64,000 bases of DNA. It comes from Hydrococcus rivularis NIES-593. GTDB taxonomy: Bacteria > Cyanobacteriota > Cyanobacteriia > Cyanobacteriales > Microcystaceae. Under the pieces are notes generated by a model. It was not told where the DNA came from and ran no database searches. It worked only from the letters and a program-made list of their open reading frames with translations. The position numbers and the translations under genes are program-made. This document shows, piece after piece, positions 24,314-57,712 of this stretch (position 1 is its first letter; every line of letters starts with the position of its first letter). The stretch lies in NCBI RefSeq assembly GCF_001904635.1, contig NZ_MRCB01000007.1, positions 1 through 64,000 of the forward strand, written 5' to 3'.

Positions 24314-24788
24314 TTAAGCGGATTTTTCATCGCGACCAAATGTTCTCTCTGCCTCTTGAATGAGCTACTGCCACGCGCCTTCTGGCTGCCAAATTTCTGC
24401 CATCGGATAGCGCGATCGCGCTTCGGGCAACTTTAAGACGTGCTTTTGAAAAAGATACAGAAAACAAGAGACTCTCATTCATATTGAGCGCGCAATGCAC
24501 CCACACCTTGCGATCGCTCAAAGATTTCATTACGTCAAAAAAGAGGCGCACGTCGTCGAGTTTTGGGGCTTCCCAAACGACGGGAATATGAAAGTAAGCC
24601 ATTCCCAAACCCGCGACGATTGTCCCTTCATCGGCTAGGGCATTTTTGGATGAAGGCAGCGCGAGATTGATAACCGACTCGTAACCCGCATCGGCGATTT
24701 TTTGAAATTGTTCCCGCGTCGGCTGTCCCGATGTGGCTATCTTGTCTGTGATTTGATAGTAATTAACGATTTCTTGCATAACGAACAT
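24314..24788 (-). pseudogene. Tyrosine-phosphatase-like protein gene, frameshift and nonsense
   Basis: The N-terminal 107 codons give a dual-specificity-phosphatase-like fold (YYQITDKIATSGQPTREQF, GYESVINLALPSS, VWVHCALNM), as in the BLH-type phosphatases common in cyanobacteria. The active-site loop should read HCALNMR, but ATGA is duplicated (ATGAATGA), shifting the frame just before the catalytic arginine. In the restored frame the expected C-terminus is readable: RVSCFLYLFQKHVLKLPEAR, MAEIWQPEGAWQ, then a TAG, then LIQEAERTFGRDEKSA to the TAA at 24314. Two independent lesions make a sequencing error unlikely. Without Arg the frame of 153 codons cannot be catalytically active. Confidence 0.85.
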
Positions 24789-24820
24789 AGATAGGATAGT
24801 AGTTAGTGGTTAGTTGGAGA

Positions 24821-24851
24821 ACTACTAACTACTAACTACTAACTACTAACT
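24821..24851. repeat. Heptamer tandem repeat
   Basis: The unit ACTACTA is repeated just over four times between the broken phosphatase gene and the lpdA stop. Similar A/T-type short words occur between atpA and the gamma gene. It is a simple-sequence tract that may vary in length. Confidence 0.85.
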
Positions 24852-26283
24852 AAACTGCTACTTCTGCCCGTTTATACGCCTCGTCGAGAACTTCAGAGAG
24901 GGTAGGATGAGTATGGACGTTAAAGGCGAGGTTTTGGACGGATTGACGTTCTGCGATCGCGTTAGCGGCTTCTTGAATCAAATCGGAAGCGTGAATGCCA
25001 ATAATATGAACGCCTAACACTTCGCCCGTATCTTGGCGATAGACGACCTTTGCCATCCCCTCGGTTTCGCCTTCTGCAAGGGCTTTAGAATTGCCTTTAA
25101 AGTAGGTTTTAACCGATGCTACCTCAAATCCTTCCTGCTGACCTAATTCTTTGGCTGCTGGTTCTGTCAGCCCCACATAGCTAATTTCTGGATGAGTGAA
25201 GGCGGCAGCGGGAATGCTGCGATAATCGATGTTTTTTTGACGACCGCAGATATTTTCGACAGCGACCACTCCTTGACCGGATGCCGCGTGAGCAAGCATC
25301 ATTTTCCCCGTAGCATCGCCGACTGCCCAGAGATGGGGAATTGGTTCTCCATTGCTTAAGACTGCCATACGATCGTCTACAGGAATATAGCCTCGGCGAT
25401 CGAGTTCTACGCCTACCGATTCTAACCCCAAATTCTTAGTAGCAGGAATGCGCCCCGTTGCCACTAAGCAAGCATCGACTTCTAGAACATCGATAATTTC
25501 TTTCGTTTGTGCATCTGCCAATTCGATAACCACGGGAGAACCCGGTTTTACGGTTTTCGCAAGCGTTCCTACATAGGTTTCAATGTCGCGGGGATCGATC
25601 AAAATCCGTTTGGCTATTTTAGAAATATCCGGATCGAATCCTGGCATGAGAGTATCTAGGGCTTCAATCATGGTAACTTCACACCCTAGCGCCGTATAAA
25701 TATCGGAAAACTCTAACCCGATATAACCGCTGCCGATAATGGCAACCCATTTGGGCAGGTTTTCTAATCTGACTGCTTCATCGCTAGTAAAGACGGTTTT
25801 GTGGTCGATTTCAATTCCTGGCGGTACGAACGGTACCGAACCGGGACACAGCATAATATCCTTAGCCGTAACGATCTTTTCGCCATCCTCTGTAATGACG
25901 CTCACTTTCTGGGGAGCGACAATTTTTCCCCAACCGCGAATCGTATCGACTTTAAGACGCTTAAGGCTGTTGGTGAGATCGCCGCGAATCTTTTCAACTA
26001 GATTAATAGCATGGTTGGCGATCGCTTGGCGATCGAAAGTTACACCGCCAACGTGGATTCCAAGACTGTCTAAATGGTGAGTATCGCGTAATTCTCTGAC
26101 TCTTCCCGATGCAGCTAGGAGGGCTTTAGAAGGGATACATCCCCGATTGACACAAGTCCCGCCCATATCTTTTGCTTCGACAATCGCGGTTTTCAATCCG
26201 CATTTGACTGCGTGTAGCGCCGCACCGTGTCCGCCGACGCCCGCACCAATAATTACTAAATCGTAATCAAACTGTTCGCTCAT
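24850..26283 (-). CDS. lpdA: Dihydrolipoamide dehydrogenase
   Basis: 477-aa FAD flavoprotein (E3) of the pyruvate dehydrogenase complex and the glycine cleavage system, re-oxidising lipoamide with NAD. FAD-binding [17 protein letters not shown], redox disulfide [13 protein letters not shown] (C44, C49), NAD-binding [11 protein letters not shown], and near the end the catalytic HTHPTLSE pair. Of the length and type normal in cyanobacteria. Starts at ATG 26283 preceded by GGAGCGTCTATG on the minus strand. Transcribed alone. Confidence 0.95.
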
Positions 26284-53010: not shown

Positions 53011-53766
53011 ATGACAATGTTGGACGGTTTGAGCGTTTTAAATTCTCTTCCCCTCGCCGCTTTAGAAGTTGGTAAACACTTTTATTGGGAAATTGGTAAT
53101 TTAAAAGTACACGGACAGGTGTTTCTCACTTCCTGGTTTGTAATTGCACTTCTCATTATTGCTTCGCTAGCTGCAACGCGCAACGTTCAGCGAATCCCCA
53201 GTGGCATCCAAAACCTAATGGAATACGTTCTAGAATTCTTACGAGATTTAGCCAAAAACCAACTGGGAGAAAAGGAATACCGTCCTTGGTTACCATTTAT
53301 TGGCACGCTGTTTCTCTTTATCTTCGTGTCTAATTGGTCGGGTGCATTAATTCCCTGGAAACTCATTGAGATTCCCAATAGCGAACTCGCAGCGCCGACA
53401 AATGATATCAATACAACGGTTGCCCTAGCGTTACTAACTTCTTTAGCTTATTTTTACGCAGGTTTTAGTAAAAAGGGTTTGGGATATTTTGCTAACTACG
53501 TTCAGCCGATTCCCATCCTTTTACCGATCAAAATTTTAGAAGATTTCACCAAGCCTCTATCTCTCAGTTTCCGACTTTTTGGAAACATTTTGGCAGACGA
53601 ACTGGTTGTAGCAGTACTGGTGTTTTTAGTGCCGCTATTCGTTCCCTTACCGCTGATGGGGTTGGGGTTATTTACTAGCGCAATTCAGGCATTGGTATTT
53701 GCTACCTTAGCCGGAGCCTATATTCACGAGGCAATTGAGTCTGAAGGTGAAGAAGAGCATGAGTAG
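53011..53766 (+). CDS. atpB: ATP synthase F0 subunit a
   Basis: 251 aa, five to six membrane helices. Forms the proton half-channels beside the c-ring. The essential arginine lies in [20 protein letters not shown], and [20 protein letters not shown] and [19 protein letters not shown] complete the family pattern. ATG 53011 is 64 bases after the subunit I gene. In cyanobacterial naming this is atpI; the UniProt name atpB is used here. Confidence 0.97.
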
Positions 53767-53979
53767 ATGATTGGTTATTAATTATTCAGTTATCAGTTAT
53801 CAGTGACAGAATACATAAGTAATTGATAATTGATAATTGGTAATAGATAACCGATCTAGAAGCTCAGTAGATGACACTTTGGGAGTAATTTAGAAGAAGT
53901 CAACATAGATTGAGTTGCTTGGGGACTTCGCGCTCCTGACAATTAACTTGACGATTTGTTTTGTAATCAAAGGAAATAA

Positions 53980-54231
<252 letters not shown>

Positions 54232-54252
54232 AAGGTTATAGGTCAAAAAGAG

Positions 54253-54369
54253 GCGGAGAGGCACCGCTAAAATGGTAGAACCGATTCTGCCATTGGGCGA
54301 TCGCAAGCGAGCTGGCGACGCGGGTAAGTTCCTCTGGAATACTTGGCGAACGTCAGCCAGCCCCTCCGC
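54253..54369 (+). ncRNA. Structured RNA element between subunit c and b' genes
   Basis: A closing stem GCGGAGAGGC/GCCCCTCCGC (54253-54262 with 54360-54369, one mismatch) encloses two further hairpins. Hairpin 1 (54271-54294): AATGG-T-AGAA with loop CCGA and TTCT-G-CCATT. Hairpin 2 starts GCTGGC (54311) and closes with GCCAGC overlapping 54356-54361, with inner ACG/CGT and AAGTTCC-TCT-GGAATACTT. Nearly every base is paired. The flanks AAAAGAGGC and GCGCCTTTT offer an alternative outer pairing and the latter resembles a weak terminator. It could set the ratio of subunit c to the other subunits by attenuation or by protecting a processed 3' end, or be a mobile palindromic unit. Confidence 0.5.
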
Positions 54370-54483
54370 AAAGTTGGCGCCTTTTAATTAGGAGAGAGTC
54401 AAAACAAGATAAAACCGAGATAAGATGATAGGTTTGACTTGTAAAAGGCTTACTTTAACTAAAATTAATGGGAACTCGCAAAT

Positions 54484-54915
54484 ATGTTTGATTTTGATGC
54501 AACTTTGCCATTTATGGCATTGCAGTTCGTAATATTGGCTGTCTTGCTCAATGCCATTTTCTATAAGCCCCTCGGCAAAGTCTTAGATGAGAGAACGGAT
54601 TATATCCGTACCACAGAAGCTGAAGCCAAGGAACGAATCGCCAAAGCCGAAGCCTTGGCAAAAGAGTACGAAACTCAAATTGCAGAAGCTCGCAAGCAAG
54701 CGCAAGAAATGATTGCGGCGGCGCAAGCAGAGGCTAAAAAAATAGCCGATAGCAAGATTGCGGAGGCTCAAAGAGAAGCTCAAGCACAAAAAGAAGAAGC
54801 TGCTCGAGAGATAGAGAAGCAAAAACAAGAAGCTCTGCGAGAGCTAGAGAAACAAGTTGATGCTCTCAGCCGCCAAATCCTAGACAAATTACTAGGACCC
54901 GAACTGGTAAGATAA
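54484..54915 (+). CDS. atpF2: ATP synthase F0 subunit b'
   Basis: 143 aa. One N-terminal membrane helix ([20 protein letters not shown]) and a long charged coiled coil ending [11 protein letters not shown]. Together with b it builds the peripheral stalk; the presence of separate b and b' is characteristic of phototrophs. Named atpG in cyanobacterial usage. ATG 54484 is preceded by TGGGAACTCGCAAAT, with no strong ribosome binding site. Confidence 0.95.
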
Positions 54916-56079: not shown

Positions 56080-57591
56080 ATGGTTAGCATCAGACCCGAC
56101 GAAATTAGCAGCATTATTCGCCAACAGATTGAAGCCTACGACAAGCAAGTCCAAGTTTCTAACATAGGAACGGTTCTTCAGGTAGGAGACGGTACGGCTC
56201 GCATTTACGGGCTAGAACAAGCAATGGCCGGAGAACTGTTAGAGTTTGAAGACGGGACGGTCGGCATCGCCCTCAACCTAGAAGAAGACAATGTAGGTGC
56301 GGTGTTGATGGGAGAAGGCTTCGGAATCCAAGAAGGTAGCACGGTAAAAGCGACTGGAAAAATCGCTCAGGTGCCCGTGGGCGAAGCCCTGATAGGACGA
56401 GTAGTAGACGCTTTAGGTCGTCCGATTGACGGCAAGGGCGCGATTAACACCAGCGAAACTCGGCTGATAGAATCGCCCGCTCCTGGGATCGTAGCTCGTA
56501 AATCCGTTTGCGAACCCTTACAGACGGGAATTACCGCCATTGACGCGATGATTCCCATCGGACGCGGACAGCGCGAATTAATCATCGGCGATCGCCAGAC
56601 TGGAAAAACATCTGTAGCCGTAGATACCATCATTAACCAGAAGAGCGAAGATGTCATTTGCGTCTACGTCGCGATCGGACAAAAAGCTTCTACTGTTGCC
56701 CAGGTCGTCGATACCCTAGCATCTAAAGGCGCAATGGACTATACCATCGTCGTTGCTGCTAACGCCAACGACCCCGCCACCTTACAATATCTCGCGCCTT
56801 ACACGGGGGCTTCGATGGCAGAATACTTCATGTACAAGGGCAAGCATACCCTAGTGATTTATGACGACCTCACCAAGCAAGCACAAGCCTATCGTCAGTT
56901 GTCACTGCTGCTGCGTCGTCCACCCGGACGGGAAGCTTATCCTGGAGACGTATTCTACCTCCACTCTCGATTACTAGAACGTGCTGCTAAGCTAAGTGAC
57001 AAACTGGGTGGCGGTAGTATGACCGCGCTGCCAATTATCGAAACTCAAGCAGGCGACGTATCTGCTTACATTCCTACTAACGTTATTTCTATTACCGACG
57101 GACAGATCTTCCTCTCTTCTGACTTGTTTAACGCTGGTTTCCGCCCCGCCATTAACGCAGGAATCTCGGTATCGCGCGTGGGGTCTGCCGCTCAAACCAA
57201 AGCAATGAAACAGGTTGCAGGTAAGCTGAAGCTAGAATTAGCTCAATTTGCCGAACTCGAAGCCTTCTCTCAGTTTGCTTCCGATTTGGATGCGGCAACT
57301 CAGGCACAATTGGCACGGGGTCAGCGCCTGCGCGAGATCCTCAAACAGCCTCAAAACTCCCCCCTAGCAGTATGGGAGCAAGTAGCGACTGTATACGCGG
57401 GTCTGAACGGCTATCTCGACGATCTGCCAATCGATAAAGTGGTTGACTTTGCCAAAGGATTGCGGGAGTATCTCAAAACCAACAAGCCCAAATACTCCGA
57501 AATTATCGGCGAGAAAAAAGCTCTGACCGAAGACGCAGAAGCCCTGCTTAAAGAAGCAATTACTGAATACAAGCAGGCTTTTGCAGCATAG
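56080..57591 (+). CDS. atpA: ATP synthase F1 subunit alpha
   Basis: 503 aa, normal length. Walker [16 protein letters not shown], the conserved arginine region [16 protein letters not shown], and the C-terminal helical domain are complete. Forms the alpha3-beta3 hexamer; the catalytic beta subunit is encoded elsewhere, as usual in cyanobacteria. ATG 56080. Confidence 0.98.
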
Positions 57592-57712
57592 TTCGGCGAT
57601 TAGTTAGAAGTTATTAGTTAGTGGTTAGTGGGAATGAACGAGCAACTACTAACTAATAACCATTAACCCTTGATAACTGATTACTAATAACTAATAACTG
57701 TTTACTGAATTT
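57592..57712. repeat. Simple ATTAGTTA-type repeats between atpA and the gamma gene
   Basis: Words such as TTAGTTATTAGTTAGTGGTT on one side and CAACTACTAACTAATAACCA on the other are complementary, so the 120-base spacer can fold into a long AT-rich hairpin. No gene. Confidence 0.6.

Follow-up and report, generated by a model that had tools for sequence, protein, structure and literature searches.

A hairpin behind the ATP synthase c gene of Hydrococcus rivularis, enlarged by a 114-base insertion, probably helps the cell to make more subunit c than its neighbour

A hairpin located directly behind the gene for ATP synthase subunit c probably helps the cell to make more of this subunit than of its neighbour b′, and in Hydrococcus rivularis NIES-593 it appears to have been enlarged by an insertion of 114 bases. 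This view was reached from predicted folds and sequence comparisons of the window, i.e. the whole stretch of 64,000 nt analysed here, and of the corresponding spacers of other cyanobacteria. The original prediction offered two alternatives for a folded segment between c and b′, namely a control element that separates the expression of c from that of the downstream genes, or a mobile palindromic element that landed in a tolerant spacer. Both are partly supported, each for a different layer: a control element fits the site, which is common after c, covaries in one family, shows an excess of G-U pairs and recurs after the α and β genes, and an insertion fits the segment itself. The features of the window are as follows.

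53986–54231, + strand: gene for ATP synthase subunit c (81 aa, by translation; close matches in 49 of 50 family genomes)
54248–54255, + strand: 5′ arm of the older hairpin (AAGAGGCG), as placed by alignment to the short hairpin that two congeners have
54253–54366, + strand: probable structured insertion of about 114 nt within the older hairpin, its ends uncertain by 2–3 nt
54253–54369, + strand: folded element of the original prediction, with a closing stem of nine pairs (predicted fold)
54265–54299, + strand: first inner hairpin, 10-bp stem, CCGA loop and four more pairs (predicted fold)
54311–54357, + strand: second inner hairpin (predicted fold)
54378–54385, + strand: 3′ arm of the older hairpin (CGCCTTTT); A/T-rich AATTAG comes next (fold and congener alignment)
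54484–54915, + strand: gene for subunit b′ (by translation; downstream of c in 219 of 220 distinct loci)
57589–57712, + strand: strong hairpin in the α–γ spacer, the same kind of boundary (−35.6 kcal/mol; z −5.11; none of 200 shuffles as good)

The folded RNA proposed at 54253–54369 is well supported, with a predicted energy of −53.7 kcal/mol against a mean of −38.88 kcal/mol for 200 shuffles (z −4.07; one of the 200 as good); together with its flanks (54232–54400) the z-score is weaker, −2.68. In the predicted fold the closing stem, which had been counted as 10 bp, consists of six plus three pairs flanking one mismatch, and the six outer pairs have a probability of at least 0.995. The core of the first inner hairpin (54271–54294) has the 10-bp stem, the CCGA loop and the U-G pair (noted as T-G) that had been described. 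Both long inner hairpins were correctly recognised, and an additional hairpin of 3 bp (54301–54310) is also predicted. The unpaired bases, 27 out of 117, are more than the “very few” that had been claimed. The element begins 21 nt after the c stop codon (54229–54231), and 114 nt separate it from the start of b′ (54484). It was not recognised as a known RNA family, with no family of Rfam 15 reaching the gathering threshold within it; the only matches in the window are two tRNAs, both elsewhere, and a permissive Rfam scan of the spacers gave six sub-threshold matches, all outside the element.

Three further observations were made in the window. The a–c spacer contains A/T-rich repeats at 53777–53848 (TTATCAG, TTGATAAT) with weak sub-threshold matches to eukaryotic hairpin families, probably a plain inverted repeat. 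Directly before the b′ start lies ATGGGAACTCGCAAAT (54468–54483), nearly invariant across the four genomes of the genus, and a similar ATGGGAACCG.. precedes b′ in genus g13; it is possibly a start-site signal or a tiny overlapping frame. A strong hairpin on the minus strand (24783–24852; z −5.24, none of 100 shuffles as good) is located at a 61-nt spacer between two minus-strand genes.

How the segment came to its place can be read from the congeners. G002 and G003 have the same flanks as the window, but a short hairpin only, which in G002 is GAGGCGCAGTTGTTGCGCCTC followed by TTAAT. The alignment leaves a 114-column gap in these two genomes at 54253–54366, positioned inside the older short hairpin, whereas the segment is present in G000 and G001, i.e. 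in two of the four genomes of the genus; across 388 genomes of the order its carriers are the same two. The ends of the insert form the new closing stem, and the old arms (54248–54255 and 54378–54385) are mutually unpaired in the predicted fold. Nothing points to a switch in which the old outer stem and the new closing one alternate, since the old one is about 8 kcal/mol worse and has a probability of 0.0. An insertion is likelier than a deletion for these ~114 nt, because short hairpins are frequently found elsewhere in the family, though other large-loop forms with different sequences also occur there. The comparison shows that in this lineage some 114 nt of structured sequence lie inside an older hairpin and give a larger and more stable predicted fold. 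Between G001 and the window 5 of the 117 bases differ. Placed on the 169-nt fold, the substitutions of G001 change 5 of 57 pairs, of which three remain standard and two, at the apex of the second inner hairpin, are broken; the best fold of G001 itself is partly unlike that of the window.

The insertion part of the second alternative is thus retained, and the word “mobile” is not. A search of the segment and its flanks against its own genome (5.14 Mb in 67 contigs) gave no second copy, so that the suspicion of a genomic repeat fell away; the other 26 matches all have E values of at least 0.07, and 21 of them span the stretch GCGATCGC, an octamer which we take to be HIP1. With a single copy in its genome and one other carrier among the 388 genomes of the order, the segment was rejected as a repeat element, and it has neither the multiple copies of a MITE nor the high copy number of a REP; its nine-pair closing stem, which might be compared to the terminal inverted repeats of a MITE, is partly shared with the target sequence. 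A phage or plasmid origin was likewise rejected, no match to the segment being found in phages and plasmids and one exact 20-mer of it, the sole query, being absent from viral contigs.

The survey of the site covered 236 c loci (30 + 26 + 80 + 100), from which 16 with identical spacers were removed to leave 220. For the batch of 26 loci, 94 of 114 places without a locus were read and 20 left out; in the batch of 30, the main c genes of the family that lacked a locus include eight from genus g7 that were left out, and eight weak second matches were disregarded. The 80 named loci are the best of at least 487 relatives and are rich in Prochlorococcus, with 69 distinct spacers. Folding of the first 70 nt counted from the c stop codon gave a median z of −2.87; the best 5% of shuffles is reached by 145 of the 220 distinct c–b′ spacers (75 fail), compared with 13 of 220 before c, 8 of 220 at the end of c and 21 of 219 downstream in b′. 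Counted per similarity group, 45 of 87 pass after c versus 7 of 87 before c, 2 of 87 at the end of c and 9 of 86 in b′. Background co-directional spacers of 60–350 nt, taken from 20 stretches of 20 kb plus the window, pass in 14 of 64 cases.

A separate helix search, from which one spacer containing N was excluded, found a significant stem in 152 of 219 c–b′ spacers, with a median length of 14 bp and a start at a median of 18 nt (quartiles 14 and 25; n = 152), counted from the first base of the c stop codon. Loops are of at most 12 nt in 103 of the 152 and longer than 100 nt in 10. The best single stem of the window's spacer is an inner one, which makes this spacer borderline in the test (5 of 100 shuffles as good); the spacer of G001 narrowly fails (7 of 100). 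The named, Prochlorococcus-rich set passes the fold test in 46 and the helix test in 32 of its 69 distinct spacers, the other set in 99 and 120 of 151, respectively. A hairpin site directly after the c gene is therefore common in the sampled cyanobacteria, as judged from predicted structure, and its sequences differ between clades. At the c–b′ boundary of L054, L060 and L064 (genus g13), an outer stem of 14–15 bp (GTAGAGACG..) encloses loops of 104 to 170 nt made of unrelated sequence; these are further cases of long sequence within a c–b′ hairpin. An antisense terminator was considered and rejected as a general feature, an A-rich tract preceding 12 of 103 compact hairpins.

Other boundaries of the atp genes were compared by the same 70-nt fold test. 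For α and δ, 60 and 20 self-chosen genomes with the window and some overlaps gave 61 and 23 distinct spacers; for β, the best 30 of 60 genomes gave 29. Hairpins pass in 41 of 61 spacers after α, 20 of 29 after β and 44 of 55 after γ, the last atp gene of the window's cluster, compared with 23 of 122 after a, 40 of 217 after b′, 2 of 119 after b and 2 of 23 after δ; within the loci used for a, c passes in 84 of 122. After a and b′ about one locus in five passes, which is above the 5% expected by chance and near the background value given above. Spacer length was rejected as the cause: the a–c and δ–α gaps, with medians of 164 and 87 nt, carry few hairpins (α–γ, 114 nt; β–ε, 111 nt). In the genome of the window the β–ε spacer (L378, on another contig) is borderline, with 5 of 100 shuffles as good, and the α–γ hairpin at 57589–57712 is built of TTAGTTAGT-type repeats.

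The c ring of cyanobacteria contains 13–15 copies of c. Subunits c, α and β are those made in more copies than the product of the next gene, and the stoichiometry of the enzyme is quoted as α3β3γ1δ1ε1a1b2c10 (PMC4423207). Since hairpins are common after c, α and β but seldom found after a, b′, b and δ, they appear by this comparison to mark the steps at which a multi-copy subunit gene precedes a single-copy one.

We consider it reasonably probable that the c–b′ hairpin acts in the transcribed RNA as a 3′ barrier for selective RNA processing and stabilisation (SRPS). In this mechanism the polycistronic transcript would be cut downstream of the c hairpin, the hairpin would halt 3′–5′ exonucleases, the c mRNA would outlive the part that follows, and c would be made in excess of b′. 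The α and β hairpins would act in the same way at their 3:1 steps, and the insertion in the window would be tolerated because its product is still a hairpin. Strong 3′ hairpins that lack a U-tract and stand behind the genes of excess subunits correspond, by analogy, to the anatomy of SRPS. Such stem-loops were found in the proportions given above for c, α and β, and also in this window, and at least five T within the 8 nt past the stem occur in only 8 of 152 cases after c, 4 of 41 after α and 2 of 20 after β (for the latter two the stem end was read off the 70-nt fold), as opposed to 19 of 44 after γ.

Known systems resemble this arrangement to varying degrees. In Clostridium cellulolyticum processing sites lie at either end of the F-type ATPase c gene, whose RNA is three to five times that of its neighbours, and 28 of 33 SRPS stem-loops have no U run (PMC4423207). 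The likeness lies in the same gene, c, and in stem-loops mostly without a U run; the differences are the other phylum, and that processing and RNA levels were measured there and structure alone here. A predictor of SRPS operons in Clostridium also names ATP synthases (PMC8219983). In Arabidopsis plastids one end of atpH mRNA maps to a stem-loop predicted downstream of the gene, and among the transcripts of the operon monocistronic atpH is the commonest by far (PMC3817242); as here, the stem-loop follows the c gene of the same operon, whereas b′ is encoded in the nucleus and the mRNA is additionally protected at a site for an RNA-binding protein. The main text of a paper on SRPS in E. coli (PMC10667835) makes no mention of atpE, ATP synthase, the atp operon or ATPase. 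An antisense RNA over a different atp spacer has been described in Prochlorococcus (PMC7368042). No prior paper on a cyanobacterial c–b′ hairpin was among the matches listed, a weak result with the cyanobacterial atp-operon work of the 1980s mostly outside the coverage.

The main rival to a 3′ barrier is partial attenuation of transcription, in which the hairpin would stop a share of the RNA polymerases after c, α and β and so lower the transcripts of the next gene. It would use the same boundaries, internal terminators are known to set ratios in ABC transporter operons of Clostridium (PMC9045158), and cyanobacteria are without Rho, most 3′ ends of Synechococcus elongatus being unlike known terminators and 22% of its transcription units ending like canonical ones (PMC13289151). 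The same data temper the preferred reading: only 75 of 163 defined 3′ ends lacking a U-tract are structured, which means that protection of ends by hairpins is not the general case in S. elongatus; a word search of that paper found no mention of atp genes. What weighs against attenuation is the scarcity of T runs past the c, α and β stems compared with γ. A promoter and terminator scan of 53700–54600 found no terminator-like site, and thus no GC-rich hairpin with a U-tract of the kind that marks an intrinsic terminator. On this evidence we give attenuation a small but real chance.

A second rival, which we regard as quite improbable, holds that the site carries a REP-like palindromic DNA repeat or other selfish insertion that is tolerated in the spacer and has no function as RNA. 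The core TAGAGACG..CGTCTCTA, found in many c–b′ hairpins, is indeed a palindrome that some genomes carry dispersed (G074 has 89 copies, G136 37, G102 18 and G108 17, among 15 self-chosen genomes), GTAG-tagged REPs have been reported from cyanobacteria (PMC3733652), and the window segment is itself an insertion. However, G089 has the atp copy only, and G014 has none by exact pattern (nor have G049 and G133, three of the 15), and both G089 and G014 carry a hairpin at the site. The GTAG REPs are likewise short intergenic palindromes for which mRNA stabilisation is a proposed role (PMC3733652), but the window segment occurs only once in its genome, and the common core is absent from many hairpins at the site. 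Compact hairpins with GAGA or GAGG in the 5′ arm make up 65 of the 152 significant ones, and some large-loop forms among the other 87 carry the same core. A tolerated repeat would also leave the concentration of hairpins after c, α and β unexplained. A hairpin seems to persist at the site through changes of its sequence, and the insertion in the window seems to be one more such change.

The composition of the stems bears directly on the same question. A palindrome in DNA should hold G-T and A-C mismatches alike. When stems were found with G-U and A-C scored alike and compared with stems of equal strength in shuffled spacers, the c–b′ stems contained 139 G-U versus 48 A-C, and the shuffled ones 267 versus 320, related spacers not being independent; with one spacer per similarity group the averages are 54.9 and 21.5. 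Ratios of G-U to A-C are 62:15 after α, 21:8 after β and 27:2 after γ. Because the stems show this excess of G-U over A-C, unlike the shuffled spacers, the sense RNA of the c–b′ hairpin appears to be selected; for a DNA palindrome or an antisense hairpin the excess would not be expected. The compensatory changes sought by the original prediction in related c–b′ spacers were found in 17 sequences of one family, picked for having a compact hairpin: standard pairs fill 91.7% of the pair cells, and in 20 cells both sides have changed, each value being reached in none of 500 shuffles. The number of pairs with double-sided changes, 5, is not unusual (reached by 102 of 500 shuffles).

More improbable still is a translational device, in which the hairpin would set b′ translation through coupling or start-site access and not mRNA stability: the title of Dallmann and Dunn 1994 (cited in PMC11124002) tells of a structure between the β and ε genes of E. 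coli (uncDC) that governs ε expression, and this is like the present case an RNA structure at a multi-copy to single-copy step of the ATP synthase genes, but by that title it acts via translation, in another phylum and at another boundary, whereas the c–b′ stems begin close behind the c stop codon and, with 114 nt between element and b′, the b′ start of the window lies outside the stem.

We return to the reading of the hairpins as 3′ barriers and to an old question, namely how one operon gives many c subunits per b′. Tentatively, and with somewhat more doubt than belief, we propose that cyanobacteria, being without Rho, encode the ratio of ATP synthase subunits in their transcripts by 3′ hairpins at each drop in copy number (c to b′, α to γ and β to ε), that the position of these hairpins is conserved whereas their sequences give way to others, including recruited palindromes or insertions such as that of the window, and that the 3′ hairpin of plastid atpH is an inherited or re-evolved counterpart. 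This would provide a concrete rule for cyanobacteria, with hairpins at the drops in copy number and not where the number stays or rises, and the rule is checkable in published 3′-end data and by hairpin swaps. The site would then be an RNA feature whose position and structure outlast its sequence.
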